Source: a bacterium (GTDB lineage Bacteria > Elusimicrobiota > Elusimicrobia > UBA1565 > UBA9628). From it: a stretch of DNA of 63,849 nucleotides. The notes beneath the pieces are model-generated. The model saw only the letters and a program-made list of their open reading frames with translations, was not told where the DNA came from and searched no databases. The stretch lies in the NCBI GenBank assembly GCA_021782205.1, contig JAJXVH010000011.1, positions 1 to 63,849 on the forward strand, read 5' to 3'. Shown here one piece after another: positions 1,829 through 54,771 of this stretch (within the stretch, counting starts at the first letter, position 1; each line of letters begins with the position of its first letter). Position numbers and translations under genes: made by a program.

Positions 1829-2121
1829 CCGCGCAGCTCCGTCAGATCGCCCGCGTCAAGGCCCCGGCCCGAGCGCAGGACTTTCAAAATCAAGGATAGG
1901 CCCACGACCGCCTCCGCCGCGGCCACCGCCAAAACGACCGCGACCGCGGCCAGGGCCTCCGGGTCGGAGAAGCGGCAGGCGCCGTGCACGAGCGCCAGGT
2001 CGGCCGCGGCCACCATCAGCTCGACGCCCAACAGCATGGCCAGCATCTGCCGGCGCAGCACGACCGCCGCCAGACCCAGGGCGAACAGCGCTCCCGACGT
2101 CGCCCACACCGCCGCGTTCAT
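1825..2121 (-). CDS. nuoK: NADH-quinone oxidoreductase subunit K
   Basis: This small complex I membrane subunit of 98 residues has three transmembrane helices. The family's typical core is visible in RRQMLAMLLGVELMVAA, which carries the membrane Glu conserved in NuoK helix 2, and in a later AEAVVGLSLILKVLR helix with the second conserved Glu. The length matches the usual 100 residues. The ATG at 2119-2121 overlaps the nuoJ stop by four bases, and its own stop overlaps the nuoL start in the same way. The gene sits between nuoJ and nuoL as in most complex I operons. Confidence 0.94.
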   Translation of the reverse strand: MNAAVWATSGALFALGLAAVVLRRQMLAMLLGVELMVAAADLALVHGACRFSDPEALAAVAVVLAVAAAEAVVGLSLILKVLRSGRGLDAGDLTELRG

Positions 2122-2603: not shown

Positions 2604-2612
2604 CAGGGACGC

Positions 2613-2618
2613 ATTCTA
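2613..2618 (-). promoter_or_regulatory. Putative -10 box of nuoJ
   Basis: TAGAAT on the minus strand, nine bases before the nuoJ ATG. It resembles the TANNNT boxes that precede many lead genes in this window. No clear -35 is seen. Confidence 0.45.
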
Positions 2619-2644
2619 CTGTTTTCGCGGCGCGGCGTCCAATC

Positions 2645-3439
2645 TCAGTAGGAAACGGTCAGTTCGCTACCGTCGGAGGAAACGCTCAAAACCGCCTGGT
2701 CACCGCCGTGCAGCCGAACCGCGCGCGGCGAGGATTCCAAGTCCGAAAGGACGAAGCGGTACGACTCGAATCCGTCGGACTGAGCGTCCGCGCCGTCGTA
2801 GATCAAGCACACGCCGATGCGGTCCGAGGCCCCCGCGGGACGCACGGAGACGTCGGGCAGGCGGGACAAGAAGAGTCGATACGGCCGGCCGGCGATGGAA
2901 ACAGCCGTTCCCGTCGCGTCCGTCTTGCGGAAGAGGTCGCCGATGCGGCTGCGCCACAGCGTCGCGCCCGAGTCCGCGTCCTTGATCTCGAAGAGGTTGT
3001 TGAGCCGCGCGCGAAAAATGCTGACATCGAGATCCAGTGAGTAGCGGTGGCCGCCGGCCGCCCAGGAGGCGGACATCCCGCGCTCGACTTTCACCATCAG
3101 AGGGGCGCGTCCGCACGGCGCGACGACGAGCCACGGGGAGCCGTCGACGTCCAACGTCCCGGAGATATACGTGCGGCCCGCGGCGTCGTCGAACCAATCC
3201 ACCTCGGTCCAATACCGATCAAGCAGACCCGCCAGGCTCACGCGCTGGTAGGCCGCGACGGGCGCCGCAATCGCCGCGGACGCCGGGGGCCGCGGCGGCG
3301 GCGGAACGGCGATGCCGCCGGGCGGAAGCGAGAAGCCGAATTCGCCCGCGGATGCCGCCAGCGCGTCGAGATCGATCGCGCCGGGCAGAGCGTGCACGGG
3401 AACTGCGAGCGCGATCGACAGCAGCAAGACCGGTTTCAT
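2645..3439 (-). CDS. Secreted protein of unknown function
   Basis: I do not recognise this 264-residue protein. It begins with a clear signal peptide (MKPVLLLSIALAVPVHALPG, cleavage probably after Ala16), followed by a Pro/Ala-rich linker near residues 45-65. The mature part is mixed alpha/beta, and segments such as YISGTLDVDGSPWLVVA and RPYRLFLSRLPD look like a beta-rich exported domain. An upstream in-frame ATG would give a longer protein with no signal peptide. I chose the ATG at 3439 because the signal peptide begins there and a TATGAT box lies exactly six bases upstream. Base composition is slightly less GC-rich than the neighbours. Confidence 0.75.
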   Translation of the reverse strand: MKPVLLLSIALAVPVHALPGAIDLDALAASAGEFGFSLPPGGIAVPPPPRPPASAAIAAPVAAYQRVSLAGLLDRYWTEVDWFDDAAGRTYISGTLDVDGSPWLVVAPCGRAPLMVKVERGMSASWAAGGHRYSLDLDVSIFRARLNNLFEIKDADSGATLWRSRIGDLFRKTDATGTAVSIAGRPYRLFLSRLPDVSVRPAGASDRIGVCLIYDGADAQSDGFESYRFVLSDLESSPRAVRLHGGDQAVLSVSSDGSELTVSY

Positions 3440-3445
3440 GCGCGT

Positions 3446-3451
3446 ATCATA
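3446..3451 (-). promoter_or_regulatory. Putative leaderless -10 box
   Basis: TATGAT on the minus strand with exactly six bases to the ATG at 3439. It is an instance of the recurrent TANNNT-N6-start pattern, and transcription would begin at or next to the start codon. Confidence 0.55.
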
Positions 3452-3519
3452 CTCAGCGGCTTGCGCCGCGGGAACGCGCGCCTGCGGCGGAAGGGTCCGG
3501 CAATAGACCCAGGCTCCGC

Positions 3520-4593
3520 CTAGGACTTCTGGTCCTCGGTTCGGATTTTCAAGTCGCGCCCCAGGTCGGCCGCCTCGCGCAGGACCGCGGGTTCCGAGAC
3601 CTTCAGTCCCCAGAGCACCAGCACGCTCAGCAAGGAGGGCACGACGTAGTAGCACAGCCGGAACAGCATCGCCGCGACCAGCGCGGCACCCGCGTCGATG
3701 CCGAAACCCGCCATCAACGCCGCGATGGAACCTTCCGCCGCGCCCAACCCTCCGGGCAGGACCGGGATCAAGGTCGCGGCCTGGCTGGTGGTGAACGCCG
3801 CGACCAGATAGCCCAGCGGCAGGTCGTTGCCGGTCGCGCGGAAGCACAGCCACAGCGCCGTCATCGCAAAGCCCCAGTCCAGGCACGTATAAAGGACGGT
3901 CGCGGTCAGGCGCCCGCGCCCGGAGCGGATGCGCGCCAAACCCTGGGTCAACTGCATCTCAAAGGCGGCGAAGTCCTCGGGCGGGATCTCGCGCTGGGAC
4001 AGGGAGAACGCGGCGCGGTTGGTCAGGCGGAATAGGCGGTGCGTCAGCCGGCCGCGCGCGGCGCGGTTGAAGAATGCCACCAAAATCAGCGCGGCCAGCG
4101 CCAGCAGGACGAGCAGGCCGAACGCGCTTTCCAGCACCGCCACGCGCGCGCCGCCGGCGCGCAGGAGCAAGGTCGCCAGGCCTTGCGCCAGGATCAGCGC
4201 CAGCACCGCGTAGAGGATCGCGGAGGTGACGGCCGACGCGGTGATGGTCGTGGCGATCGGCACGCGGCGCTTGTGCAGAAGGTGGGCCTTCAGCGCGAAG
4301 CCGGTGGCACCCCCGGCCGAAAGCACGTAGTTGGCGGTGGTGGAGACAAGCGCTATGCCCAGCACCACGGGCGCGCCCAGCGCATGGCCCAGCACCGCCA
4401 GCGTCTCCGACAGCGCCAGACCGACCATCGCGTGGCTGGCGCACGCGCACGCCAAAGCCGCGCCCACCCACAGCCAGGACACCGCCTCGCCCGCGCGGCG
4501 CACCTGCTCCAGCCGCGAGCCGACGGCCGCCGCCAGCAGGGCCAGCGCCGTCAGCGCCCCCAGCCCCCAGACCAACCCGCGCTTGGCGCTCAC
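3520..4593 (-). CDS. Lysylphosphatidylglycerol synthase-type (UPF0104) membrane protein
   Basis: A 357-residue polytopic membrane protein of the AglD/MprF N-terminal (UPF0104) flippase-like superfamily. Hallmarks are about eight hydrophobic helices, the segment ANYVLSAGGATGFALKAHLL and the C-terminal motif TLIPVLPGGLGAAEGSIAAL, which matches the family's P-x-x-P-G-G-x-G-x-x-E signature. There is no MprF catalytic domain, so lipid or polyprenol flipping or envelope modification is more likely than lysyl transfer; the substrate cannot be read from sequence. The start is a GTG at 4593: it has GGGGAG nine bases upstream and overlaps the stop of the preceding gene as GTGA. Confidence 0.82.
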   Translation of the reverse strand: MSAKRGLVWGLGALTALALLAAAVGSRLEQVRRAGEAVSWLWVGAALACACASHAMVGLALSETLAVLGHALGAPVVLGIALVSTTANYVLSAGGATGFALKAHLLHKRRVPIATTITASAVTSAILYAVLALILAQGLATLLLRAGGARVAVLESAFGLLVLLALAALILVAFFNRAARGRLTHRLFRLTNRAAFSLSQREIPPEDFAAFEMQLTQGLARIRSGRGRLTATVLYTCLDWGFAMTALWLCFRATGNDLPLGYLVAAFTTSQAATLIPVLPGGLGAAEGSIAALMAGFGIDAGAALVAAMLFRLCYYVVPSLLSVLVLWGLKVSEPAVLREAADLGRDLKIRTEDQKS

Positions 4594-5612: not shown

Positions 5613-6836
5613 ATGAGCGTGATTTTGACGCGCGGCCGCGTGCCGCGCACGCCGCACACGGAATTCTATTCGGAGCCCGAGGTGCTGGCGCTGGAGGAAA
5701 TCCACGGCGTCATGGGCTTTTCCGGCGACTGGTCGCGCAAATATCACTACCGCAAATATCCCACCCAGCTCATCCGGGAGCCGCACCGGCTGCCGCTCGA
5801 CCTGCGGCCCCAGCCGCTGCAGCCCTTGCCTCTTCAAGCCTGGCATCTGCGCACCGGACGCCTGAAGGCGCACGGCGACGTGCTCAGCGGACGCGTGCCG
5901 CTGGTCTACGGCGCGTCCACGTTCATCTTCGCGGCGCGCTTCGAGCGTTCCTGCCCGGCCGACCGCTTCGTGCGCAACGGCGACGGCCACGAGTTGTGGT
6001 TCGTGCAGGAGGGCCGCGGCCTGCTCGCGTCCGAATACGGCGTGCTGCCCTTCCGCCCGGGCCAATACGTCGTCGTGCCCAAGGGCACGACCTACCGCGT
6101 GGAGCTGGAAAGCGAGGAGTGCGCGCTGCTCATCGTCGAGTCGCGCTACCCGATCCACTTCGCCCCCCATTACCTCAATAAGTCCGGCCAGGCGACGTTG
6201 ATGGCGCCGCTGGTCGAAACCGAGATCGAGACGCCGGAGTTCCGCCCCGCCAGAGACGAGGAAGGCGAATTCCGCATCTGGACCAAGCACGGCGGAGGAT
6301 TTACCACCGAGATGTCCCTGGGCCACCACCCGTTCGACTTGATCGGCTGGGAGGGCGCGCTCTATCCGTTCACGTTCCATACCGACGATCAGCATCCGCT
6401 GGCGCGCCAGATCCACACCGCCCCGCCCACGCGCCAGACTTTCGAATCCGGGACCGCGCCGCACTCGGGCTTCGCGGTGTGCACGTTCAAGGGCCAGATC
6501 GAGGGCTGGCACCCGCGCGACGTGCCCGCGCCTTACGCGCACTTCAACGTCGACAGCGACGAGGTGATGTTCTTCTCCAACACCTCCTACGGCGCGCGCA
6601 AAGGCCTGGTGGAGCCGGGCTCTTTCACCTTCCATCCCGGCAGCCTGCCCCACTCGCCGCACGGCATGGCGGCCAAGCGCTCGTTCGCGGAACGCGGCAA
6701 GCTCTCGGACTATCTCGCCGTGATGCTGGACACGTTCTTCGAGCCGCTGTCGGTGGCGCGCCAGGCGCTGGGCATCGCCGACAAGGACTACCCGCTCAGC
6801 TGGAACCGCGACACGCAGGGGATTTCGGCGGCCTGA
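5613..6836 (+). CDS. hmgA: Homogentisate 1,2-dioxygenase
   Basis: Predicted to open the ring of homogentisate with O2 to give maleylacetoacetate, in tyrosine/phenylalanine breakdown. The 407-residue cupin-fold protein carries family features: the N-terminal FSGDWSRKYHYRKYPTQ, the central LWFVQEGRGLL beta-barrel, and a C-terminal metal region with AHFNVDSDEVMFF followed by FHPGSLPHSPHG. These would supply the His, Glu and His iron ligands. It is slightly shorter than the Pseudomonas and human enzymes (about 430-445) and resembles a short bacterial subfamily. The next gene starts inside its stop codon (TGATG), and an HPPD-like gene follows. No maleylacetoacetate isomerase or fumarylacetoacetase is in the window. 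Confidence 0.86.
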   Translation: MSVILTRGRVPRTPHTEFYSEPEVLALEEIHGVMGFSGDWSRKYHYRKYPTQLIREPHRLPLDLRPQPLQPLPLQAWHLRTGRLKAHGDVLSGRVPLVYGASTFIFAARFERSCPADRFVRNGDGHELWFVQEGRGLLASEYGVLPFRPGQYVVVPKGTTYRVELESEECALLIVESRYPIHFAPHYLNKSGQATLMAPLVETEIETPEFRPARDEEGEFRIWTKHGGGFTTEMSLGHHPFDLIGWEGALYPFTFHTDDQHPLARQIHTAPPTRQTFESGTAPHSGFAVCTFKGQIEGWHPRDVPAPYAHFNVDSDEVMFFSNTSYGARKGLVEPGSFTFHPGSLPHSPHGMAAKRSFAERGKLSDYLAVMLDTFFEPLSVARQALGIADKDYPLSWNRDTQGISAA

Positions 6837-7469: not shown

Positions 7470-8285
7470 ATGAAAAAACAGCCTTTCCATAATTTCGTCG
7501 TCGACCACATGACCTTCCTCGTCGAGCCCGACCTCTACAAGACCACCTACGCGCTGTTCCGCGTGATCTTCGGCGTGGGCCGCGAGGACCTGATCTACGA
7601 GAAGCGCTCGAACTGGCCGGGCCAGAAGAAGCCCGCCTCGATGACCTTCGCCGCGCGCGTGGGCGTGGAGAAGGACGCGCGCGTGCCGGCGCAGGCCATC
7701 TTCGCCGTCGTCCAGCCCACCGAGCCCAAGACCCGCTCCTCCCACGTGCGCGCGATGCTCAAGAACCGCGGCGGCTCCTGCCACTGGCAGCACGTGGCCC
7801 TGCGCACGCCGGACCTGCTGGGCTTCCATAAATTCTGCGTGGAGCGCGGCGTGAACTTCATCACGCCCATCCTCAAGGACGCCGACGAGGACCTGATCCA
7901 GGTCTTTTCCGGCGAGTGGACCGTGCCCGGCGCCGCCAAGCCCAGCGCGACTTTTTTCGAATTCGTCCAGCGCGATCCCAGCGCCGAACTGCTCAAGCAG
8001 CTGGAGACCGCGTCCAACCGCCAGGCCTGGTTCCGGGACAAGACCTTCCTCGGCCTCTACGGCGAGAAGGAAAACGAGTATAAACGCGGCCGCGCCGTGC
8101 CCTTCATCGACGACGCTCTCGCTCGGCGCATCGCGTCGCGGCTGAAAGGCCGGGAGGTCTTCGAGATCGAGGACTCCCAACTGGAGCAGGTGGAAGCGGA
8201 CATGCTGGACTACGCCGCCGCGCGCGCGCGGACCGCGGGAAGGTCGGCGGCAACGTCCCGGTCGGCTCCGGTCAGCGCGCCTTAA
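7470..8285 (+). CDS. Half-size 4-hydroxyphenylpyruvate dioxygenase-like VOC enzyme
   Basis: This 271-residue protein matches the catalytic C-terminal half of 4-hydroxyphenylpyruvate dioxygenase and lacks the usual N-terminal vicinal-oxygen-chelate domain; full HPPD is about 350-400 residues. All three expected iron ligands can be placed: His13 in VVDHMTFLVE, His108 in CHWQHVALRT and Glu164 in TFFEFVQRD. Between them lies the family's Q/N-rich substrate region in altered form. The context after hmgA fits homogentisate formation from 4-hydroxyphenylpyruvate. A different 2-oxoacid substrate (hydroxymandelate-synthase-like chemistry) or a related aromatic is possible. SD GGAGGA precedes the ATG. 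The 3' end overlaps the convergent gene by 14 bp. Confidence 0.72.
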   Translation: MKKQPFHNFVVDHMTFLVEPDLYKTTYALFRVIFGVGREDLIYEKRSNWPGQKKPASMTFAARVGVEKDARVPAQAIFAVVQPTEPKTRSSHVRAMLKNRGGSCHWQHVALRTPDLLGFHKFCVERGVNFITPILKDADEDLIQVFSGEWTVPGAAKPSATFFEFVQRDPSAELLKQLETASNRQAWFRDKTFLGLYGEKENEYKRGRAVPFIDDALARRIASRLKGREVFEIEDSQLEQVEADMLDYAAARARTAGRSAATSRSAPVSAP

Positions 8286-12087: not shown

Positions 12088-13388
12088 AGCAGGTCCGAGG
12101 CCAGCGCGGCCAGTTCCGAGCGCTCGCTCTTGGTGAAGGTCACGTGGCCGAACAGGTGCTGGCCCTTGAAGCGCTCGACCAGATTGGTCAGGCCGTTGGA
12201 CGCGGCGTCCAGGTAGTAGTTGTCGACCTGGTGCGGGTCGCCGGTCAGCACGATCTTCGCGCCTTGTCCCGCGCGCGAGATGATGGTCTTGATCTCGTGC
12301 GGCGTCAGGTTCTGCGCGTCGTCGATGACGATCAGCAGGCCCGGCAAGGTGCGGCCGCGCAGGAAAGTCACGGCCTCGATTTCCAGCACGCCTTCCTCGA
12401 TCAGCATCTGGATGTCCATGTCCGCCGTCTCGAGCGCGCCCTTGGGCTTTTCCAGCAGGTAGGACAGGTTGTCGTAGATGGCGCCCATCCAGTTGGTGAG
12501 CTTCTCCTCCTTCGTGCCGGGCAGGAAGCCGATGTCGTGGCCGACGGCGATGACCGGACGGCCGACGAGGATGCGGCGGTAGATCTTCTGCTCCAGCGTC
12601 TGCTGAAGCGCGCAGGCCAGCGCGATCATCGTCTTGCCCGAGCCGGCCAGACCCACCAAGGAGACGAGCTGCACGTCCTGGTTGAGCAGGAGCTCCAGCG
12701 CGAAGCGCTGCTCCGTGTTCAGCGGCTTGATGCCCCACGGCGCGGAGTCGGCCTTGGCCAGGGGCAGGAGCGCGCGGGCCTTGACGTCGTAGCGCGTCAG
12801 CGCGCTCTTGGAGCCGCCGTCCGAGGACTTCAGGATGACGAACTCGTTGGGCACCAGGTCCGGCGCGGGAGGGTCCAGGCGCTTGTCCTTGTAGAAGCGG
12901 TCGATGGCTTCGCCCGCGACCGCGATCTCGCGCCAGCCCTTGTAGAGCTCGTCGACGTCGACCTTCTCCTTCTCGTAGTCCTGCGTCTCCAGGCTCAGGG
13001 CCTCGGCCTTGATGCGCAGGTTGATGTCCTTGGAGATGAAGATCACGTTCTCGCCCTGCTTTTTGAGGTAAAGCGCGCAGCTCAGGATCTCGTTGTCCTT
13101 GCTCTGCGCCGAGAAGGCCTTGGGCAGGCCGTCGGAGACCATGATCTCGACCTTGAGCTTGCCGCCGTGCTCCAGCGCGACCCAGTTGGACAGCTTGCCG
13201 CCCTTGCGCAGGCCGTCGAGCTGGCGGGCGATCAGGCGCGCCGAGCGGCCGCGCTCGTCGTTGGCGCGCTTGAAGGTGTCCAGCTCCTCGATGACGGTCA
13301 GCGGAATGACCACGCGCGAGCCCTTGAACGCGAACATCGCGTACGGGTCATGAAGGATGACGTTCGTGTCCAGAACGAATGTTTTCAT
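12084..13388 (-). CDS. phoH: PIN domain plus PhoH-like ATPase (PhoH2-type)
   Basis: A 434-residue fusion of an N-terminal PIN ribonuclease domain (MKTFVLDTNVILHDP, with the acidic residues Asp7 and later Glu/Asp) and a C-terminal PhoH ATPase with Walker A GLAGSGKT near residue 250 and Walker B LLIVIDDAQNLT. PhoH2-type proteins couple RNA unwinding to sequence-specific cleavage; that function is inferred from the family. It lies between hemW and a response-regulator gene with ATGA overlaps on both sides, so the three genes read as one transcript. Confidence 0.93.
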   Translation of the reverse strand: MKTFVLDTNVILHDPYAMFAFKGSRVVIPLTVIEELDTFKRANDERGRSARLIARQLDGLRKGGKLSNWVALEHGGKLKVEIMVSDGLPKAFSAQSKDNEILSCALYLKKQGENVIFISKDINLRIKAEALSLETQDYEKEKVDVDELYKGWREIAVAGEAIDRFYKDKRLDPPAPDLVPNEFVILKSSDGGSKSALTRYDVKARALLPLAKADSAPWGIKPLNTEQRFALELLLNQDVQLVSLVGLAGSGKTMIALACALQQTLEQKIYRRILVGRPVIAVGHDIGFLPGTKEEKLTNWMGAIYDNLSYLLEKPKGALETADMDIQMLIEEGVLEIEAVTFLRGRTLPGLLIVIDDAQNLTPHEIKTIISRAGQGAKIVLTGDPHQVDNYYLDAASNGLTNLVERFKGQHLFGHVTFTKSERSELAALASDLL

Positions 13389-14494
13389 GCTCTCGCCTCC
13401 TGAGGTTGGAACGGCGGCACGAACTCCTTGAAAACGTCGTTGGCCGTGAACACGCCTTCGGGCGTCAGGCGCCAGCGCGGTCCGTCCTCGCGCGTCAGAC
13501 CCCGCGCCTTGAGCACGGCCCAGGGACCTTCAAACGCGCGGCGCAGGCCGTCGCTCGGAACGAAGCCTTCGATGAGGCGCAGACCCAGGAACGCCTCCTC
13601 GCCCAATTCCTCCAGGCCCGCCGGGACCTCGGACTCCGCCGTGGCGCGGCGGCCGGCTTCGATCGCGGCCAGGTACGGCGCCAGCTTCTCGTCGTTGGAG
13701 GAGCGCACGCCGCCCAGGAACGACGCCGCCGACGCGCCGAGCCCCAGGTAGTCGCCGCGGCGCCAGTAATTGACGTTGTGCCGCGAGCGGTGCCCGGGCC
13801 GCGCCCAATTGGAAATCTCGTAGTGCTCCAGCCCGGCGCGCGCAAGCTGCGCGATCGCCAGCTCATACATCTCCCGGCCCAGGTCCTCGTCGGTCTCGAC
13901 GCCGCGCTTGGAAAACAACGTGCGGTCCTCGACCTGCAGGCCGTACAGCGAGACGTGCTCCGGCGACAGCGCCAGCACGAAGTCCAGAGTCGCGCGCAGG
14001 CTGTCGAGGCTCTGCCCCGGCAGGCCGTACATGAGGTCCACGGAGATCGCCGGCAGGCCCGCCGCCCGCGCCAGACGAAACACGCGCGCGAAATCCGCCG
14101 CGCTGTGGCGGCGGCCCACGGACTTCAGCAGTTCGTCGTCGGCGGTCTGCAGGCCGATGGACAGGCGCGTGACGCCCGCGCGCGCCAGCACCTCCAGCTT
14201 TTCGGCGTCCAGGCTGTCCGGATTGCCCTCGAACGTGGACTCCGTGAGCCGCGCACCGGGATACGCGCGCCGCAGCCGCTCGAAAAGCTGCGCGCACTGC
14301 TCCGCGTCGAGTTCCGACGGGGTGCCGCCGCCCACGTAGAGCGTCTGCGGCAGACGCGGCGGCAGGAGGGCGGCCTCGGCCTCAAGAGCGGCCAGGTAGC
14401 GTTCGATCTGCTTCTTCTGCCCGGAGAAGGCCGCGAAGTCGCAATAGAAGCACTTCACCGCGCAGAAAGGGATATGGACGTAAAGGCCTGTCAC
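13385..14494 (-). CDS. hemW: Heme chaperone HemW (radical SAM)
   Basis: A radical SAM protein of 369 residues of the HemW/YggW family, which carries heme for delivery to membrane or other targets. The cluster motif CAVKCFYC (Cys11, Cys15, Cys18) is followed by CDFAAFSG and the SAM-binding YVGGGTPS, as in HemW. It differs from HemN, which has an extra N-terminal region and a further Cys. The C-terminal domain includes NVNYWRRGDYLGLGASAASF, typical of HemW. The start is a GTG at 14494. The stop overlaps phoH by ATGA. Confidence 0.92.
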   Translation of the reverse strand: MTGLYVHIPFCAVKCFYCDFAAFSGQKKQIERYLAALEAEAALLPPRLPQTLYVGGGTPSELDAEQCAQLFERLRRAYPGARLTESTFEGNPDSLDAEKLEVLARAGVTRLSIGLQTADDELLKSVGRRHSAADFARVFRLARAAGLPAISVDLMYGLPGQSLDSLRATLDFVLALSPEHVSLYGLQVEDRTLFSKRGVETDEDLGREMYELAIAQLARAGLEHYEISNWARPGHRSRHNVNYWRRGDYLGLGASAASFLGGVRSSNDEKLAPYLAAIEAGRRATAESEVPAGLEELGEEAFLGLRLIEGFVPSDGLRRAFEGPWAVLKARGLTREDGPRWRLTPEGVFTANDVFKEFVPPFQPQEARA

Positions 14495-14594
14495 CGCGCT
14501 GTGATTGTCCGATATTTCCGAGTCCCGCGCAAGGCGTGCGCGGGGCCTTCCTTGATTAGGACTTAAGGCCCCTGACGCGCGCGCGCCGGGAGCC

Positions 14595-14600
14595 TATCCT
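14595..14600 (+). promoter_or_regulatory. Putative leaderless -10 box
   Basis: TATCCT with exactly six bases to the ATG at 14607. It fits the recurrent TANNNT-N6-start pattern. Confidence 0.5.
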
Positions 14601-14606
14601 GACGTC

Positions 14607-15689
14607 ATGCTCAGGCTCTGGGCCGCGCTTCTGTTGTCCGTCGCTCCCGCGCGCGCCGTGGACGCCTTCATCGCGCCGTGCCGGCTGGATGTCCCCGCCG
14701 CGTCGGCCGCTCTCGTCGCTCCGGTCGCCGCGCCTGTCTCCGTCTCCGGTCTCGGCGCGTCCATCGCGGCGTCACCTTCTTCTTTGTCGGCCTTCGCCGC
14801 GGCTCCCGCCGCGGCGGCCGTCCCCCCCGCCATTGTCGCCGCCGCGCCCGCCCCGGCCTTCGCCCTTCCCGCTCTCGCCGCGCCGGCGGCGGAGCCGCCG
14901 CGAGACGCCGCCGCAGAACCGGCCGCGCCGCCCGCGGGACCAAGCCGGGTTCGCGCGCTTCTCTCGCGCCTGCGCGACCCGTTCGGGTCCAAGAACTCCT
15001 CCGCGCCGCCGCCCGTCGGCGAGCCGCAGCGCCTGGACCGCGAGTTCTCGAAAATCGACTTCTGGGCGCGCGTCGGGCCCGCCGCGCGCGCCGAGATCGA
15101 GGGTCTGCGCGCGCGCCGCATCCCCAAGACGGAGTTCAAGAATTACGTGCGCCGCCAAGCCGCGGAAGCTTTCGCGAGGATCAAGGCCGCGCGCGGGACG
15201 GAGAACATCGGCCTGCACTACAATCTGCACGGCGGCGCGCGCGAATCCTACGTGGGCGGCGGCATCCGCGCCTCGAAAGGCGACATCGCCCTGCGCTACA
15301 CCACCGGCGGCGACTGGAACGACAAGGTCTATTTCTTCCAGACCGGCGTCCACCACCCCTACGAGGCGCTCGACGCCAGCAACGGCGAGATCCTCTTCTG
15401 GCCCACGCGCATGGGCAGCGCGTTGAGCGTCTTCGCGCTGGACGCCCCGGAACTGCGGGCCGCGCGCGCCGACGGACGCATCACGGACGTCGGCTCGATC
15501 TCCATGAACTTCCACAAGGGCCTGCGCGGCGTGCCCTACTCCGCGTTCCTGGCGCCGCCGCTGACGGTGTTCGTCGGCACCGCCAAGAAGGTGGGACTGC
15601 GCCGTCTCAGCCGGGACGAGGAGACCCTCGCGACGATCCGCTATTTGGAAGCGGCGCTGACCGCCGGCGGCGGCTACGTGACGCGCTAG
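14607..15689 (+). CDS. Secreted Ala/Pro-rich protein with unassigned C-terminal domain
   Basis: A 360-residue exported protein. Residues 1-17 are a signal peptide ([17 protein letters not shown]). Residues 20-110 are an Ala/Pro/Ser-rich low-complexity region, and residues 140-350 form a globular domain I do not recognise. That domain contains RREFSKI-like charged helices, then a beta-rich part with [40 protein letters not shown] and [19 protein letters not shown]. Several conserved-looking His and aromatic residues suggest an enzyme or binding domain, but no catalytic motif can be named. It is divergent from hemW. Its stop shares a CTAG with the convergent slipin gene. Confidence 0.75.
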
Positions 15690-16429
15690 CTTTTCTTGTC
15701 CTTGTTCAGGAACATGGAGATCATGTCGATGGGCACGGGGAAGATCGTCGTGGAGTTCTTCTCCTCGGCGATGTCGGCCAAGGTTTGCAGGTAGCGCAGC
15801 TGGAGGGAGGCGGGGTTCTCGGACAGGATTTTCGCGGCCTCGCTGAGCTTGACCGAGGCCTGCAGCTCGCCCTCGGCGTGGATGACCTTCGCGCGGCGCT
15901 CGCGCTCGGCCTCGGCCTGCTTGGCCATCGCGCGCGTCATCTCGGGCGGCAGGTCCACGTTCTTGACCTCGACGGCCTCGATCTTCACGCCCCACGGCTC
16001 GGTGTGATGGACGAGGATGTTCTGCAGCTCGACGTTGATCTTGTCGCGGTTGGTGAGCAGGTCCTCCATGTCGAGCTTGCCCAGCACGGAGCGCAGGGTC
16101 GTCTGCGCGAACTGGCTGGTGGCGAAGAAGAAGTTCTCCACGGCCAGCACGGATTTCTCCGGGTCGACGACGCGGAAGTAGACCACCGCGTTGACCTTGA
16201 TGGAGATGTTGTCCTTGGTGATCACATCCTGCGGCGGCACGTCGTGCGTGACGACGCGCAGGCTCACGCGCTGGGCGCTCATCAGCACCGGGATCACCAC
16301 CACGGGCCCGGGGCCCGCGACCTTCCACATCTTGCCGAGGAAGAACACCACCAAGCGGTCGTATTGAGCGACGATGCGCACGCAGGTCACGAGCACGGCG
16401 GCGAGGATTCCGATTATCATCAGGGGCAT
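15686..16429 (-). CDS. Slipin/stomatin-like SPFH-domain protein
   Basis: A 247-residue membrane-anchored SPFH protein. One N-terminal hairpin or transmembrane helix ([20 protein letters not shown]) is followed by the SPFH band, with [39 protein letters not shown] and [21 protein letters not shown] helical C-terminal part ([17 protein letters not shown]) would drive oligomerisation. Such proteins scaffold membrane microdomains and often work with an NfeD-like protease; no nfeD is adjacent here. It lies downstream of the convergent secreted protein and is not obviously in an operon. Confidence 0.92.
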
Positions 16430-48854: not shown

Positions 48855-49838
48855 CTACTTCGTCGAGGACGACGACGACTCGTCAAGGCGCAGGTCCCAA
48901 CACTCGTTGGCGTGCTTGAGGAGGTCGGTTTGGGTCTGCGCGCGGCGCACGAAATCCTGGACTTCGGGCGACTTCCAGGCGGCCCCCACTTTCGGCCAGG
49001 CGGAGGCCAGGCTTTCCGTCTTCAGGTCGGCGACGGCGAAGGGCAGGGCGTTCAAGAGCTTGGCGCGGCCGTTGGGCACGACCAGCACCATGGACTGCGG
49101 GCTTTCGGCGCGGGTTTTCATCTCGTGCTGGATGCCCCAGGGGTAGACCGCCAGGCGCGGGCCTTTGAGCGCAGCGGCCGCGGCCTTCAGGCCCAGCACC
49201 GCCTCGGCCCAATCCTCGTCGGAGCACGCGAGCGCGTCCCAGGCGTGCGCCGCGCGGCCCAGGCGCATCATGGGGCCGGTGACGAAGGTGCGGATTTTGC
49301 GCTCGGTCGCCTGCTCGTAAACGGCGACGGCTTCCTGGACGTTGAACCGCGTCGGGATGAAGACCAGCTCGGGCTCCAGGCCGCGCTCCACCAGGCGGCT
49401 GATCGCGTCCCAGGCGGGCTTGTAGCCGGAGCCGGGCCTCAGTTTCTCGTGCGTGGCCGCGACGGCGCCGTCGATGCTGATCTGCACGCAGGCGATATTC
49501 ATCGCCCGGAGGCGGTCGCACGCCGCGTCGTCGAGATCGAGGCCGTTCGTCTCGATCTTGATTTCAACGCCGCCCCGCGTGAGCGTCTCGAATATTTCCC
49601 AGACCCAGGGAGAGCTCATCGGCTCGCCGCCGCCGAACGCCACGTACGCGATGCCGTTCTCGACGATTTGGCGGGTGAGCGACAGCGCCTGCGCGCGATC
49701 CATCTCGTCCTTCCAGACGAAATCCGCGCCGGACTCCTCGCAGCAGTGGAGGCAGCGGCCGGTGCAGTTGTTGGTCAACTGCCAGGCAAGAAAGAGGGGG
49801 GCGCCGTAGTCGCCCACGGACGCCCCCCTCCGGTGCAT
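48855..49838 (-). CDS. Radical SAM protein, cluster paralogue 1
   Basis: A 327-residue radical SAM enzyme. The 4Fe-4S motif is CTGRCLHC (Cys25, Cys29, Cys32), followed by the SAM-binding FGGGEPM and the strands KIETNG and VQISIDGA. The N-terminal GAPLFLAWQLTNN resembles the two other radical SAM proteins of the cluster. The C-terminal region has a SPASM-like strand (VLVVPNGRAKLLNALPF) but no Cys cluster: only one Cys, near the C-terminus. It probably modifies the small peptide encoded immediately upstream: its ATG at 49836-49838 overlaps that peptide's stop (TGATG). As the last gene of the run it may be the peptide-specific enzyme. Confidence 0.9.
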   Translation of the reverse strand: MHRRGASVGDYGAPLFLAWQLTNNCTGRCLHCCEESGADFVWKDEMDRAQALSLTRQIVENGIAYVAFGGGEPMSSPWVWEIFETLTRGGVEIKIETNGLDLDDAACDRLRAMNIACVQISIDGAVAATHEKLRPGSGYKPAWDAISRLVERGLEPELVFIPTRFNVQEAVAVYEQATERKIRTFVTGPMMRLGRAAHAWDALACSDEDWAEAVLGLKAAAAALKGPRLAVYPWGIQHEMKTRAESPQSMVLVVPNGRAKLLNALPFAVADLKTESLASAWPKVGAAWKSPEVQDFVRRAQTQTDLLKHANECWDLRLDESSSSSTK

Positions 49839-49957
49839 CACGTGAACCGGATGTAGGGCTGAGCCATCACGCGCTCGGAAACTTCCTCCAAGGAGGGCGT
49901 CTCCCAAGCGAGCTTCGGCTGAGCCTTCGCATCGGTCACGGTCTTCTGGTCGTTCAT
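49838..49957 (-). CDS. Putative ribosomal precursor peptide (39 residues)
   Basis: A 39-residue ORF inside the radical SAM cluster, with a strong Shine-Dalgarno and a start/stop overlap with the next radical SAM gene. It opens MNDQKTVTDAKAQPK, with a hydrophilic, Lys/Asp/Gln-rich leader-like part, and closes with WETPSLEEVSERVMAQPYI then RFT. It has one Trp (18), one Tyr (35), one Phe (38), one Met besides the start, no Cys and clustered Glu. This is the layout of a substrate for Glu/Tyr- or Trp-directed radical SAM chemistry, as in PqqA. The segment after the Pro20 region is a candidate core. No database match can be checked here. Confidence 0.72.
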   Translation of the reverse strand: MNDQKTVTDAKAQPKLAWETPSLEEVSERVMAQPYIRFT

Positions 49958-49962
49958 GACTG

Positions 49963-49969
49963 CTCCTTT
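49963..49969 (-). promoter_or_regulatory. Strong Shine-Dalgarno of the precursor peptide
   Basis: AAAGGAG on the minus strand, five bases before the ATG at 49957. It is the clearest ribosome binding site in the cluster and fits a peptide made in excess over its enzymes. Confidence 0.75.
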
Positions 49970-49977
49970 TTTGCCGG

Positions 49978-50928
49978 TCAGACCATGGCCGGCAAATCGT
50001 GCGAGATGGAGTCCAGAGGAACCCACGCATTGGCCTTCGCCGCGAACGCGGGGTCCGCGGAAAGGCGCTCGAGGGCGTTGCGCACGCGCGGATCGCTCCA
50101 CGCCTGGCGGTAGGCGTCCCACGCCTCGAGAAACGTATGACGGACGACGTCGGTGCAGGTGAACGGCAAGGCCGCGAAGACCTTCACGCGGCCGTCCGGC
50201 AAAATGAGCAGGGTGCCCGAAGGCTCGATCTTGCGGCCGAGAAGCTCTTCTTCCATGGAAAACGGAAGATAGCAAAGCTCGATGGGAGCGCGACACCCAT
50301 CCAGCATGGAACGAAACGACGCGTACTGCTCCGCGCTCGGCTCCAAGCGATCCCACAGCTTGGCGGCCGTTCCCAGGCGCATCAGCTTGCCGGTGTTGAA
50401 GCGGAACGCCCCCAACTCCGCCGCGAGCTTGATCACGGCCTCGGCCTCGTGGATGTTGAGGCGAGTGGGCGCGAACGTGATCTCGAGCGGCAGCCCCGCC
50501 GCGACGACGGCGCGGCAGGAGGCCAGGACCTTGGCCAAGTCCCCCCCGGGCCGCTGCCGGGCGAACGTTTCCGGCGTGGCGCCGTCCAGGGAAATCTGGA
50601 CCGAACGGACCTGCAGGCCCTGGAGCGCGCCCACGTCGAAGTTCATCCCGTTGGTCTCGATCTTGAGCAGGACGCCGCCGTCGGACAAGGTCCGGCACAC
50701 CTCGGCGAAGTGCGGGACCAGCGTCGGCTCGCCGCCCACGATCATCGCGTAGGGGACCCCGGCCGCGGCGATCTCCCGCGCCAGCTTCAACGCGCTTTCG
50801 CGCGACAATTCATGCGGCAGGGCCCGGCCCGGTGCTGAGTCCGTGCAGCAGTGCAGGCAGGCCAGGTTGCAGTCCCGGGTGAGCTGCCAGGTCACCATCG
50901 TCGGAGCGCCGAAGGAGTCGATGCGCAT
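49978..50928 (-). CDS. Radical SAM protein, cluster paralogue 2
   Basis: A 316-residue radical SAM enzyme. The motif CNLACLHC (Cys20, Cys24, Cys27) is followed by IVGGEPTL, LLKIETNG and VQISLDGA, and the C-terminal strand LLILPDGRVKVFAALPF with one following Cys (FTCTD). As in the other two paralogues, the Cys-rich SPASM cluster is reduced to a shell. The start at 50928 is one base after the UbiA stop. The peptide gene follows after 20 bases. The N-terminus MRIDSFGAPTMVTWQLTRD is shorter than in its relatives, with no extra domain. Substrate is inferred to be the adjacent peptide or its product. Confidence 0.88.
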   Translation of the reverse strand: MRIDSFGAPTMVTWQLTRDCNLACLHCCTDSAPGRALPHELSRESALKLAREIAAAGVPYAMIVGGEPTLVPHFAEVCRTLSDGGVLLKIETNGMNFDVGALQGLQVRSVQISLDGATPETFARQRPGGDLAKVLASCRAVVAAGLPLEITFAPTRLNIHEAEAVIKLAAELGAFRFNTGKLMRLGTAAKLWDRLEPSAEQYASFRSMLDGCRAPIELCYLPFSMEEELLGRKIEPSGTLLILPDGRVKVFAALPFTCTDVVRHTFLEAWDAYRQAWSDPRVRNALERLSADPAFAAKANAWVPLDSISHDLPAMV

Positions 50929-50929
50929 G

Positions 50930-51847
50930 TTATTTGCCGAACGCCACCGCCAACGCGAACACGGACGTCGCAAGCGCGTAGCACTGCACGATGCGCATGA
51001 CGGCCGGAACGAACAGCCGCGGCGTGTCCCAGGTGTCGCGGCCGGCCTTGAGGCTGGCATACCAAAGCGGGAGGCCGGCGGCCGCGGCCAGCACGGCGGC
51101 GCGCGGGAAGACGCCGGCGACGGCGCCGATCACCGCGACGCAAAGCCCGAGGGCCGAAAGGGCCAGATACAGATACCGACCGTTTTTGCGGCCCAGGCGC
51201 ACGACCAGATTCTTCTTGCCGACCAGCCGGTCCTGATGAAAATCCGGGATGTTGTTGACGACCGCCAGGGACATGATGAGCAGCCCCGGCACCAAAGAGG
51301 CCAGCAAGGCGCCCCAGGAAAAGCGATGCGTGTGAAGCTGGACGGCGCCCAAAGTCATCCAGGGTCCGTAGGACAGCCCGATGACGGTCTCTCCCAGGCC
51401 GCGGTAGACCCAGCGCACCGGCGGACCCACGTACCAGACGGCGGCGGCGCCGCCGAGCAACGTGTAGAGCACGATCGGCCAGCCGCCGCGCCAGGCCAGG
51501 AAGAAGCCGATGGCCGCCGCCAGAGCGAACGCGGCCACGCCCAAGGGGAACATCCACTCCGGGATGTATTCGTCGGCGTCCGGGTTGAACACGCGGTCGG
51601 TGCCCATCTTCGCGTCGAAATACTCGTTGAAGCTCTCCACGCCAACGACCGACAAGAATATCCCGAGCAGACCCAGCCAGAACACGCCCGGACGGAACGT
51701 CTTCTCCACGCCGTAGGCCCACGCCGCGCCCAGCAAGTAGGGCAGGAGCCCGGCATAGAGGAAAAACCGGTAGCGCACGACGGACGCGACCTTGAGGATG
51801 AGCCCCTGGCCGTCCGGCGCGTGCGGCGCGGTGAAGACGTCCGTCAT
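50930..51847 (-). CDS. UbiA-family prenyltransferase, MenA-like
   Basis: A 305-residue membrane enzyme with about nine helices. Both Asp-rich motifs are intact: NEYFDAKMGTD (residues 74-84) and NNIPDFHQDRLVGKKNL. The latter is close to the MenA signature NNxxDxxxDxxxGK. MenA attaches a polyprenyl chain to 1,4-dihydroxy-2-naphthoate, so the acceptor here may be a bicyclic or otherwise aromatic ring. It is surrounded by radical SAM genes and lies in an operon with a prenyl diphosphate synthase, which would supply its donor. The ATG overlaps the stop of the upstream radical SAM gene (ATGA). A menaquinone role cannot be excluded, but no other men/mqn gene is present. Confidence 0.9.
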   Translation of the reverse strand: MTDVFTAPHAPDGQGLILKVASVVRYRFFLYAGLLPYLLGAAWAYGVEKTFRPGVFWLGLLGIFLSVVGVESFNEYFDAKMGTDRVFNPDADEYIPEWMFPLGVAAFALAAAIGFFLAWRGGWPIVLYTLLGGAAAVWYVGPPVRWVYRGLGETVIGLSYGPWMTLGAVQLHTHRFSWGALLASLVPGLLIMSLAVVNNIPDFHQDRLVGKKNLVVRLGRKNGRYLYLALSALGLCVAVIGAVAGVFPRAAVLAAAAGLPLWYASLKAGRDTWDTPRLFVPAVMRIVQCYALATSVFALAVAFGK

Positions 51848-52824
51848 TTTCCGCCGACCTCCTCCCACTGATGCAGGCGGGAGACGATGTTGGGGTCCTC
51901 GGCCAGGCGCTCGATGAAAGTGGAGACGCGCGGGCTCTTCCACGCGGTCTGGAACTGCGCCCAGACCTGACCCAACGTGTCGGCGCGCAGGTCGCCGCAG
52001 GTGAAGGGCAACGCGTTGATCAGCTTGACCTTTCCGTTGGGCAGGATGATGAAGAGCGCGGCGGGATTTTCCAGGCGGTAGCGCAGTTCGTCCAACAATC
52101 CCATCTCGTGGAAGTAGACGCGCATGCGGCCCTCGTATTGCTTCGTCTTCTCCTTGAGCGTGGCGAAGAACTGCGGGTAATCGGCTTCGTCGGGGGCGGT
52201 AATGCCCCAGGTGCGCACCGCGTTGCCGGTGAACATCAGCTTGCCGGTGTAAAAGGAATAAGCGCCGATGTCGTGCGCCAGATCCACCGCCGCCCCGATC
52301 TCCTTGATGTTGAACTTGGCGGGCACGAAATTGATCTCGATGGGGACCTGCGCGTCGCGCAGGTTCTGGATGCCGCCCAGCGCCTCTTCAAAGCGCCCGT
52401 GCACGCGCATCTTGTTGAAGCTCGCCGGACTCGCGCCGTCCAGGGACACCTGGACCGCCTTCACGCCCAGGTCCTTGAAGCGCCGGCAGTTCTCCGGCGT
52501 CAGGTAGTGGCCGTTGGTCTCGATCTTGAGACCGACGCCGCCCTTCGTGATCCGCTCCACCATGCCGAAGAAATCCGGGCGCACCATCGGCTCGCCGCCG
52601 GAGAAGGACACGTATGGAACCTCCGCCTTGACCAGTTGGTCGATCACCGCGTAGGCCTGCTCGGTGGTCAGCTCGTCCTTGAAGGCCTTGCCCGGGCCGG
52701 ACTCCTCGATGCAGTGCAGGCAGGCGAGGTTGCACTCGTTGGTGATCTGCCAGGCGACGTAGAGCGGCGCGCCCAGGTCCGAGGTGGCGGTCTCTTCCGG
52801 CTGGGCGGCGGTTTCGGTGGTCAT
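51844..52824 (-). CDS. Radical SAM protein, cluster paralogue 3
   Basis: A 326-residue radical SAM enzyme with CNLACLHC (Cys31, Cys35, Cys38), FSGGEPM, LKIETNG and VQVSLDGA. The C-terminal strand FIILPNGKVKLINALPF is followed by a single Cys in FTCGDL. It has the longest N-terminal extension of the three (acidic, about 16 residues). It shares with paralogue 1 the stretch GAPLYVAWQITNE and the CIEESG or CCEESG continuation, so gene duplication within the cluster is likely. It lies directly after the PqqD-like gene, the usual position for the enzyme that uses PqqD as peptide chaperone. UbiA overlaps its end. Confidence 0.89.
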   Translation of the reverse strand: MTTETAAQPEETATSDLGAPLYVAWQITNECNLACLHCIEESGPGKAFKDELTTEQAYAVIDQLVKAEVPYVSFSGGEPMVRPDFFGMVERITKGGVGLKIETNGHYLTPENCRRFKDLGVKAVQVSLDGASPASFNKMRVHGRFEEALGGIQNLRDAQVPIEINFVPAKFNIKEIGAAVDLAHDIGAYSFYTGKLMFTGNAVRTWGITAPDEADYPQFFATLKEKTKQYEGRMRVYFHEMGLLDELRYRLENPAALFIILPNGKVKLINALPFTCGDLRADTLGQVWAQFQTAWKSPRVSTFIERLAEDPNIVSRLHQWEEVGGK

Positions 52825-52835
52825 GGGCGGCCTCG

Positions 52836-53276
52836 TTATTCGACGATCAGTCCTTTTTCCTTCAGCTGGGCCAGGAAGCCCGTCGCCTCGCCGGCCATCT
52901 TGCCGGAAGGGTCGTCGAACTTCGCCTTCAGCTTGTCGACCAACGTGGACGCGTCCGCGCCGGCCACGATCTCGCGGACCACGGCGGCGCCGGTGGGGCT
53001 GAGCGTGTAGACCTTCTCGGAACGCGTCTCGAAGAGCACCGCGCCGAATTTTTCCTCTCTAAACTTCACGAACGGGGCTAGTTTCATGATTCCCTCTTTA
53101 TGGGCGCAGAAGCAGGCCTCGGCGTCCCAGGTCTCCCTCTGCGCGATCTCCTGCATCTCGGCGCGGATCAGGCGGCGATTGGCGGCCTCGCCGGCGTCGG
53201 CCTTGCCGGCCTCCGCCTCGTCAAGCGTGTACGTTCCGCTCGACCACGCCTTCTTGATCAGCGCCGCGTATGACAT
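52836..53276 (-). CDS. PqqD-like peptide-binding protein with N-terminal extension
   Basis: PqqD proteins carry precursor peptides to radical SAM enzymes. Residues 64-146 are recognisably PqqD-like: MKLAPFVKFREEKFGAVLFE, VYTLSPTGAAVVREIVAG and a final FLAQLKEKGLIV. Residues 1-63 are an extra, mostly helical, charged region that contains two Cys (ACFCAHKEG). The frame is open through both parts, and Met64 (ATG at 53087) has GAGGG upstream, so a shorter PqqD-only product is possible. I list the longer form because its ATG is two bases after the prenyl synthase stop. The extension has no family I recognise. Confidence 0.82.
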   Translation of the reverse strand: MSYAALIKKAWSSGTYTLDEAEAGKADAGEAANRRLIRAEMQEIAQRETWDAEACFCAHKEGIMKLAPFVKFREEKFGAVLFETRSEKVYTLSPTGAAVVREIVAGADASTLVDKLKAKFDDPSGKMAGEATGFLAQLKEKGLIVE

Positions 53277-53278
53277 GG

Positions 53279-54235
53279 CTAGAATTCCCTCTTGGCCAGA
53301 AGCTCGATGAAGAACGCCAGCTCGGCCGCCTCGGCCTTGCACGGCAGCCGGCGCGCCATCGCGGCCATGGAGTCGACGAGCTCGCGGCCCTTGTCGCGCG
53401 CCTTCTGCACGAAGCCGCCGTCCTTGAGGAACTTCGAAATTTTCTCCGCGGCCTTCGGATCAGCGCCCGCCGAATTCCAGAGGGCCAGGAAGCTCTCCCG
53501 CGCCTTCGGGTCCTGCAGCGCGTAGAGGCACGGCAAGGTCAGGCGCCGGTTCTTGAGATCCTGGCCCTCGTCCTTGCCGGAGGCGCGCTCGGGCAAGGTG
53601 TAGTCGTGGATGTCGTCGACGATTTGAAGAAGGATGCCGGCCGCGCAGGCCAGCCGCGGCGGGTCGGCCTGCTCATGCGGGAACGGCGACAGCTCGGACA
53701 GCACCGCCCCGGCCCATTCGAACAGCGCGCCGGTCTTGCGCGAGCAGATGCCCATGTAGGCGTCGACCGAGAGGTCCACCGAGCCTTTGAGAAATTCCTC
53801 TTGAAGCTCGCCCACCGTCATTTCCCGCACCGCGGTGACCAAAAGCCGGGCCGCGCTGGGCGAAATGTCCACGGCCTCTTCTAGCCCCTGAGAGAACGCC
53901 AGGTCGCCCAGAAGAAGCGCCGTCGGGATGTTGAAGACCGCGTTCGGCGTGGGATAGCTGCGGCGCAGGGCGGCCTCGTCGACGCAGTCGTCGTGGAGCA
54001 GGCTCGCGTTGTGCACCAGCTCCAGAGCCCGCGAGGCGCCCTCCGCCTTGTCCTCCGGCGCGCCCAGCGCGCCGGCCAGCAGGAGGCAGAAGCGCGAGCG
54101 CAGCATCTTGCCCGGACGCGAGACGAAGGCCGCCAGCTCCGCGCCGACGCGCCCCTCGATGCGGCGCGCGCGGCTCTCCAGTCCCGCGCGGACCCGGGTC
54201 AGAGAATCCTCCACCTTCAGCAGGGAGATCGGCAT
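53279..54235 (-). CDS. Polyprenyl diphosphate synthase (IspA/IspB-type)
   Basis: A 318-residue trans-prenyl diphosphate synthase. The first Asp-rich motif is HDDCVDEA (Asp82, Asp83, Asp86) and the second is QIVDDIHDY (Asp207, Asp208, Asp211). The RPGKMLRSRFCLL segment binds isopentenyl diphosphate. The residue five before the first motif is Ala77, a small residue that normally allows chains longer than C15. Residues and length are otherwise normal, so the enzyme should be active. As first enzyme gene after the regulator it would supply the donor for the UbiA homologue. A general isoprenoid role is possible, but the location favours a dedicated one. Confidence 0.93.
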   Translation of the reverse strand: MPISLLKVEDSLTRVRAGLESRARRIEGRVGAELAAFVSRPGKMLRSRFCLLLAGALGAPEDKAEGASRALELVHNASLLHDDCVDEAALRRSYPTPNAVFNIPTALLLGDLAFSQGLEEAVDISPSAARLLVTAVREMTVGELQEEFLKGSVDLSVDAYMGICSRKTGALFEWAGAVLSELSPFPHEQADPPRLACAAGILLQIVDDIHDYTLPERASGKDEGQDLKNRRLTLPCLYALQDPKARESFLALWNSAGADPKAAEKISKFLKDGGFVQKARDKGRELVDSMAAMARRLPCKAEAAELAFFIELLAKREF

Positions 54236-54255
54236 GAGTTTCGATTATACCAAGT

Positions 54256-54771
54256 TCACGACATCGCCTTCAGGAGAGTCAAAACCCGCGGCATCACGGC
54301 GTTCTTCTCCTGCTGGGCCAGTTTTCCCAGCACGAAGTCCAACGTGCGCACCAACTCCAGAAGCTCCGCGGTCCGCTTTCGAAAGGCCTCGGATTCCTTG
54401 CCGTCCCCCGCCTCGCGCAGGCACTCCTCCAGAGCGCCGATCACCGGCTCGATCTCGCGCTTCTTGCGCTCGCGCGCGATGCGGCAGCACATGTTCCAAA
54501 CGTCCTTCTCGCTCTGGAAATACTCGCGCCGCTCGCTGCCCACCGACACGCGCCGCACCAGACCCCAGTCCGTCAAGGCGCGCAGGTTCATGCTCGCGTT
54601 GCCGCGGCTGATCGACAGCGCGGCCATGATCTCATCGACCGACAGGGCCGCGTCCGAAGCCATCAGCAGCGCGTGGACGCGCGCCATCGTCTTGTTGATG
54701 CCCCACTGGGACGCCATCTCCCCCCACGTGGAGACGAACCGCGTCCGAGCCTTCTTGAGCCCTTCGCTCAC
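54256..54771 (-). CDS. GbsR/MarR-family transcriptional regulator
   Basis: A 171-residue winged-helix regulator of the GbsR type. The N-terminal STWGEMASQWGINKTMARVH and the DNA-binding region VDEIMAALSISRGNASMNLR followed by ALTDWGLVRR are strongly characteristic. The C-terminal half is helical and would form the dimer. The start is a GTG at 54771 with no clear Shine-Dalgarno. It is the first gene of the prenyl/radical SAM operon, 20 bases before the prenyl synthase. A palindrome covers its promoter, so autoregulation and control of the whole operon are likely. Confidence 0.92.
   Translation of the reverse strand: MSEGLKKARTRFVSTWGEMASQWGINKTMARVHALLMASDAALSVDEIMAALSISRGNASMNLRALTDWGLVRRVSVGSERREYFQSEKDVWNMCCRIARERKKREIEPVIGALEECLREAGDGKESEAFRKRTAELLELVRTLDFVLGKLAQQEKNAVMPRVLTLLKAMS

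Follow-up and report, generated by a model that had tools for sequence, protein, structure and literature searches.

Organization of the operon and properties of its proteins

The DNA analyzed here is a contig of 63,849 nucleotides (C139; its full length is called the window below) from an Elusimicrobiota metagenome-assembled genome (MAG) of 3.09 Mb in 177 contigs. Between positions 48855 and 54771 it carries eight genes, all on the minus strand, encoding a regulator, a polyprenyl diphosphate synthase (PPS), a PqqD-type protein, a radical S-adenosylmethionine (SAM) enzyme (rSAM1), a UbiA-type prenyltransferase, a second radical SAM enzyme (rSAM2), a small peptide, and a third radical SAM enzyme (rSAM3). 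The intergenic gaps in strand order are 20, 2, 11, -4, 1, 20, and -1 bp, and the start codon of rSAM3 overlaps the stop codon of the peptide gene. An earlier note on this DNA had described a tightly spaced eight-gene operon with start/stop overlaps and had proposed that it links the maturation of a ribosomal peptide to the prenylation of a lipoquinone. All genes were found where the note had placed them, and both the profile matches and the computed gaps (-4 to 20 bp) agree with its description.

The peptide gene (49838-49957) is an open reading frame (ORF) with the ribosome-binding site GGAG and encodes a putative precursor of 39 residues, MNDQKTVTDAKAQPKLAWETPSLEEVSERVMAQPYIRFT, which contains the two aromatic residues emphasized in the earlier note, Trp18 and Tyr35. 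The PqqD-type protein (52836-53276), a predicted peptide chaperone of the type known as the RiPP recognition element (RiPP, ribosomally synthesized and post-translationally modified peptide), matches PF05402 above the cut-off (1.3e-10, residues 79-144), and its score with TIGR03859, the model specific for pyrroloquinoline quinone (PQQ) synthesis, is 19.4 bits and thus under the cut-off of 46.

rSAM1 (51844-52824; PF04055, 3.8e-25) is common to every form of the gene cassette described below. Its AlphaFold2 model (predicted local distance difference test score 92.9) has the RiPP maturases SkfB and PqqE as top fold matches in the PDB, and a profile search agrees with this assignment. An alignment of 63 sequences revealed a conserved CxxxCxxC motif and one invariant C-terminal cysteine, C276. 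The cysteines of SPASM auxiliary clusters were otherwise lost from rSAM1, and no invariant C-terminal cysteine was present in rSAM3. rSAM2 (49978-50928; PF04055, 3.7e-19) and rSAM3 (48855-49838; PF04055, 4.2e-20) characterize the extended cassette, and the best family model for both is the mycofactocin maturase MftC. The equivalog models for PqqE, MftC, and MftB gave scores under their cut-offs: the PqqE model TIGR02109 gave 85.7, 60.2, and 40.8 bits for rSAM1, rSAM2, and rSAM3, respectively (cut-off 381), the MftC model TIGR03962 at best 130.8 (cut-off 265), and the MftB model TIGR03967 22.7 bits (cut-off 33).

The UbiA-type protein (50930-51847; PF01040, 1.6e-21) has MenA as its best NCBIfam match, yet stays under every MenA cut-off (TIGR00751, 60.2 versus 102.15 bits; NF004751, 101 versus 264). 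It carries the MenA-like motifs NEYFD...GTDR and IPDxxQDRLVGK, and in a BLAST comparison with MenA, UbiA, MqnP, and CtaB the nearest functional reference was MenA of E. coli. The only relative by sequence in the PDB was human UBIAD1 (E-value 1.5e-7), the enzyme that synthesizes menaquinone-4 in humans. The PPS (53279-54235; PF00348, 7e-42) is of the long-chain type. The first gene of the operon (54256-54771) encodes a GbsR/MarR-like regulator (PF12802, 4.6e-7; NF047500, 1e-11, below the cut-off). Since only 9 of 40 related loci yielded a match to this regulator, it is accessory.

Conservation and spread of the gene cassette

Of the 56 genomes sampled from the Elusimicrobiota order of the host, 44 contain the PqqD protein, as does one additional genome of the class; when peptide matches are also counted, 46 genomes of the order carry the cassette. 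The gene order PPS-PqqD-rSAM1-UbiA-rSAM2-peptide-rSAM3 was kept wherever the contig was long enough (40 loci examined), PPS adjoins PqqD in nearly all loci, and the peptide gene separates rSAM2 from rSAM3 in all loci that extend far enough to show it. Three loci are exceptions: L048 carries an insertion of 1.6 kb, L068 is divided into two sub-clusters, and L069 has PPS and PqqD only. At L068, PPS and a PqqD with an extended N-terminus (contig C1 of genome G049, 476-1881) lie about 10 kb from a block comprising a second PqqD, rSAM1, UbiA, rSAM2, the peptide gene, and rSAM3 (12266-16349). This extension of about 65 residues is found in the PqqD of the window and in most Elusimicrobiota copies of PqqD and is absent from the short copies elsewhere, and the layout of L068 suggests that the extended PqqD goes together with PPS. 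At two other loci (L041, L049), rSAM2 and rSAM3, or UbiA, look split by frameshifts, which might be sequencing errors or decay.

When 84,980 bacterial and archaeal species were scanned with a UbiA alignment, 66 loci were obtained. Among the Pseudomonadota, carriers include Rhodopila globiformis DSM 161, Rhodovibrio sodomensis DSM 9895, Acidiphilium, Acidocella, MAGs of Azospirillaceae and Kiloniellales, and Beta- and Gammaproteobacteria. Their cassette has the form PqqD-rSAM1-UbiA-rSAM2-peptide-rSAM3, so that rSAM2 and rSAM3 are both kept there as they are throughout the Elusimicrobiota order. Records labeled Lentisphaerota, Chloroflexota, Bacillota, Myxococcota ('Deltaproteobacteria'), Planctomycetota, and other Elusimicrobiota contain a minimal form, peptide-PqqD-rSAM1-UbiA; some of these MAG phylum labels are doubtful. 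PPS is missing from the cassettes outside the Elusimicrobiota. In a tree with long reference branches, the cassette UbiA proteins formed one group in which the minimal type was set apart from the extended type. A locus from another family of the class (L166, genome G078, 21-4154) has the arrangement PqqD-rSAM1-UbiA-rSAM-peptide-rSAM3 with 36-47% identity and is a possible link between the two forms. In the class of R. globiformis the peptide seems to be rare, as it was found in none of 384 other sampled genomes, and no match was obtained when plasmids were searched with the UbiA of R. globiformis.

The genes flanking the cassette differ between carriers, which indicates that it is a self-contained unit. 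The co-occurrence of the genes in other genomes, proposed in the earlier note as a check, was thus observed: PqqD, rSAM1, UbiA, and the peptide move as one unit across phyla, and the peptide, whose absence from related clusters would have spoken against the proposal, is present in them. At the level of sequence, the existence of the cassette, its conservation, and its spread can be regarded as firmly established. This bears on the possibility that an ordinary menaquinone operon consisting of MenA and PPS merely lies beside an unrelated RiPP system. PPS and a MenA-like UbiA are indeed normal enzymes of menaquinone synthesis, but the interleaving of the two gene sets in the same order across the whole Elusimicrobiota order, the joint occurrence of PqqD, rSAM1, UbiA, and the peptide in other phyla, and the absence of MqnA/MqnD and MenD from the order (see below) make this explanation extremely improbable; for the host genome it is out at the level of marker genes.

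The recurrence of the peptide is far beyond chance. Its leader is variable but keeps the motif W-x-x-P-x-[LMI]-E-[ED]-V (W18 and P21 in the window). The C-terminal ten residues, VMAQPYIRFT, are identical in 56 of 59 distinct precursors from about 60 loci in all phyla, and one of the three others is a contig-end fragment. In the last eight residues, AQP[Y/F]IRFT, a single Tyr-to-Phe exchange is the sole variation, and all 59 precursors end with Ile-Arg-Phe-Thr. The last ten codons were present in 47 distinct DNA versions encoding only three amino acid versions; variable sites comprised all ten third codon positions and two of ten each at the first and second positions. This nearly synonymous pattern is strong evidence that the peptide is translated and that purifying selection on its C-terminus is extreme, which fits the precursor of a cofactor with one fixed structure and not a toxin or a signal.

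The selection pattern also bears on two other explanations. A ComX-like prenylated signaling peptide, which the earlier note had offered as a second interpretation, or a RiPP bacteriocin would explain why the operon combines a small peptide with a prenyl diphosphate synthase. However, a core that is nearly invariant across phyla is the opposite of what is found for pheromones and toxins, no conserved receptor, transporter, or immunity gene accompanies the cassette, and the synthase is missing outside the Elusimicrobiota. The ComX interpretation is largely refuted by the conservation of the peptide, and we regard this whole class of products as very improbable. Under the second explanation, the cassette yields a modified peptide that is prenylated and anchored in the membrane, or a redox cofactor of particular dehydrogenases, i.e., a lipidated analogue of PQQ or mycofactocin, instead of a quinone of the membrane pool. 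This would agree with the presence of PqqD and of PqqE/SkfB-like enzymes as in cofactor-forming RiPP systems, and with the near-invariance of the entire C-terminus instead of one residue alone. We nevertheless consider it improbable, as the flanking regions hold no conserved partner dehydrogenase and the markers of both menaquinone routes are almost always missing from the carriers.

Quinones and quinone biosynthesis genes in carriers of the cassette

Two pathways of menaquinone synthesis are known to us, the Men and the futalosine pathway, and their presence was judged by the marker families MenD and MqnA/MqnD. MqnA/MqnD (PF02621) was found in none of the 56 genomes of the order, whereas 21 genomes of the same class but from other families gave strong matches. 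Cassette and strong Mqn matches never occurred together (0 of 47 carriers; Fisher p 8e-6, uncorrected for kinship). MenD was over the cut-off in none of the 56 genomes; weak matches, mostly of 50-90 bits compared to the cut-off of 244 bits, were taken as other thiamine diphosphate enzymes. Among the 27 carriers fetched from outside the order, MqnA/MqnD was over the cut-off in none. An ordinary menaquinone pathway that uses the cassette UbiA, which would have contradicted the earlier proposal, was therefore not detected in these marker searches.

A quinone is expected in these organisms, since the complex I gene for NuoH was present in all 47 genomes of the order tested. The earlier note had placed complex I at this locus; this is correct for the NuoJ gene (2118-2603, PF00499), located near the start of the contig, and NuoH is encoded on other contigs of the same genome. 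Many genomes of the order contain a second UbiA-family protein with a stronger match, which was considered as a possible enzyme of quinone synthesis; most of the copies inspected adjoin cytochrome oxidase genes or resemble CtaB, which points to heme o synthase. No UbiA-family protein other than that of the cassette was found in the Lentisphaerota carrier.

The quinones of R. globiformis give indirect evidence on the product. Membranes of R. globiformis contain ubiquinone, menaquinone, and rhodoquinone, and menaquinone was modeled at the QA site of its reaction center in a structure at 2.24 Å (PMC9640540); MK-9 (MK, menaquinone) in this species is cited in PMC12542754. In its genome we found neither MqnA/MqnD nor MenD over the cut-off. 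It encodes five UbiA-family proteins, of which the cassette UbiA is the only MenA-like one; the others are heme o synthase, 4-hydroxybenzoate octaprenyltransferase, (bacterio)chlorophyll synthase, and a phosphoribosyltransferase-like protein. For Rhodovibrio salinarum, Q-10 (Q, ubiquinone) and MK-10 were reported, and only Q for five other genera of its family (PMC11316597). The cassette is carried by its congener R. sodomensis, for which our literature search found no quinone data. Thus, both cultured and named alphaproteobacterial species among the matches belong to genera reported to contain menaquinone.

Several observations weigh against the view that the cassette serves to make menaquinone. 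One of the 27 carriers from outside the order, L138, has MenD over the cut-off. Seven family-mates of the host lack the cassette, MqnA/MqnD, and MenD, yet possess complex I; they must obtain a quinone by some other route or by scavenging, unless their need for one was misjudged. MenG/UbiE was not over the cut-off in any of 12 Elusimicrobiota carriers tested, although it was in two class-mates with the futalosine pathway. If these carriers make menaquinone, its methyl group would stem from the peptide or be added by some other enzyme; alternatively, the product has no methyl group or is a different compound. In R. sodomensis, a true MenA is additionally encoded outside any men cluster. Finally, the absence of pathways refers to two marker families in mostly draft genomes. 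With regard to UbiA-family proteins in these organisms, several of the seven cassette-free family-mates gave one match only, and extra MenA-type prenyltransferases are encoded in the carriers R. sodomensis (L215 and L211), L199 (Bacillota), and L198 (Myxococcota).

The lack of MenG in the Elusimicrobiota carriers also favors another product, a new peptide-derived prenylated quinone different from menaquinone, which would be the respiratory carrier in Elusimicrobiota and an extra carrier in Pseudomonadota, with the menaquinone of Rhodopila coming from elsewhere. Furthermore, the cassette exists in versions with one and with three radical SAM enzymes, which could mean different products, and the low MenA scores of the cassette UbiA fit such a difference. 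Against it stands R. globiformis, where menaquinone is modeled in the 2.24 Å map and no other MenA-type enzyme and neither marker was found. We regard a non-menaquinone quinone as a somewhat unlikely alternative.

Outside the operon, the window encodes a homogentisate dioxygenase-like protein (HgmA_N, 5613-6836), followed by an ORF (7470-8285) that by eye resembles 4-hydroxyphenylpyruvate dioxygenase; both would belong to tyrosine catabolism. Two other contigs of the genome, C114 (about 1.4-32 kb) and C140 (about 5-38 kb), each contain a dense cluster of some ten or more radical SAM genes that is unrelated to the operon. Both clusters are reminiscent of clusters of radical SAM genes and nitrogenase paralogues that have reportedly been found in groundwater Elusimicrobia.

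Proposed pathway and comparison with known systems

On the whole, it is likely that the cassette makes a prenylated, peptide-derived redox lipid. More specifically, we lean slightly toward the view that it is a self-contained RiPP-to-lipoquinone cassette in which an aromatic unit derived from the peptide is prenylated to a menaquinone-type lipoquinone, the chemistry and the product being inferred. PqqD would bind the leader via W-x-x-P-x-L-E-E-V and present the VMAQPYIRFT C-terminus to the radical SAM enzymes, rSAM1 alone in the minimal and all three in the extended cassette. These would convert part of AQPYIRFT to an aromatic, probably naphthalenoid bicyclic head group. As the cassette encodes no protease, release would be performed by a host enzyme. 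The MenA-like UbiA would then attach a polyprenyl chain, yielding a membrane electron carrier. The side chain would be supplied by the PPS of the operon in Elusimicrobiota, whereas Pseudomonadota could use the supply for ubiquinone, in which case the product would be a second quinone beside ubiquinone. In this scheme, the origin of the ring from the peptide, the sequence of the steps, the mode of release, and the nature of the product are inferred.

Among the possible products, menaquinone or a close naphthoquinone is the most likely one, with chances that appear about evenly balanced. Tentatively, and with less confidence, menaquinone itself might be cut from the peptide; Phe38 or Tyr35 would then provide the benzo ring, and a neighboring residue the second ring together with the 2-methyl group. 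In this speculative atom mapping, the methyl-branched five-carbon skeleton of Ile36 would match, which would explain the absence of MenG in Elusimicrobiota carriers. The central proposal of the earlier note, a peptide-derived aromatic unit prenylated to a membrane redox carrier, finds good support in the conservation of the genes, their co-occurrence across phyla, and the missing Men and futalosine markers; what may have to be revised is the idea of a new carrier, as the product may be menaquinone. The note also knew of no described pathway that joins peptide maturation and lipoquinone synthesis. A search of open-licence PMC papers found no literature on a peptide-derived quinone or a PqqD/UbiA system, and the Pseudomonadota cassettes, including that of the menaquinone-containing R. 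globiformis, extend the idea beyond the note.

If correct, the proposal would add a third, horizontally spread route to menaquinone to the Men and futalosine pathways, a lipid electron carrier with a gene-encoded precursor, and a new RiPP product class, a membrane lipid, formed by new radical SAM chemistry. According to a 2026 survey, menaquinone occurs in four species without a menaquinone pathway and many lineages have no known quinone pathway (PMC13386864). The survey also lists Gloeobacter violaceus and Anthocerotibacter as producers of MK or phylloquinone that lack a pathway. A peptide-based cassette distributed over several phyla would fill part of this gap. VMAQPYIRFT can serve as a gene marker for finding the cassette, and R. 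globiformis, a cultured phototroph, makes the proposal testable.

The cassette differs clearly from ComX/ComQ, where ComX is polymorphic, carries a prenylated Trp near its C-terminus, and is accompanied by ComQ and ComP, whereas the core described here is nearly invariant, lacks Trp, and has no conserved partners in its flanks. With PQQ synthesis (PqqA/PqqD/PqqE) it shares a small ribosomal precursor, a PqqD chaperone, a maturase with PqqE-like fold, and an expected redox-active aromatic product. However, it includes UbiA and, in Elusimicrobiota, a polyprenyl synthase, lacks PqqB and PqqC, and its radical SAM enzymes score far under the PqqE cut-off. The Glu-x-x-x-Tyr pair of PQQ precursors is likewise absent; four positions before Tyr35, 58 of the 59 precursors have Met31 and the remaining one has Thr. 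The mycofactocin system (MftA/MftB/MftC) also combines a PqqD-like partner with a radical SAM maturase and forms a redox cofactor from a peptide C-terminus, but the cassette precursor ends with IRFT instead of Val-Tyr, the MftB and MftC scores are below the cut-offs, and enzymes for prenylation are present. UBIAD1, to which the cassette UbiA is related by sequence, has no peptide system and attaches the prenyl chain to a menadiol ring that is already formed. In common with the Men pathway, there are a MenA-like prenyltransferase, a polyprenyl synthase, and a likely naphthoquinone product; in contrast, MenD is missing, the prenyltransferase is under the MenA cut-offs, and genes for a peptide, PqqD, and radical SAM enzymes are present instead. 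The futalosine pathway (MqnA-D, MqnE, MqnP) resembles the proposed route in that radical SAM enzymes build the naphthalene ring; the carriers, however, lack MqnA/MqnD, the prenyltransferase is not MqnP-like, and the radical SAM enzymes of the cassette are of the peptide-maturase type.

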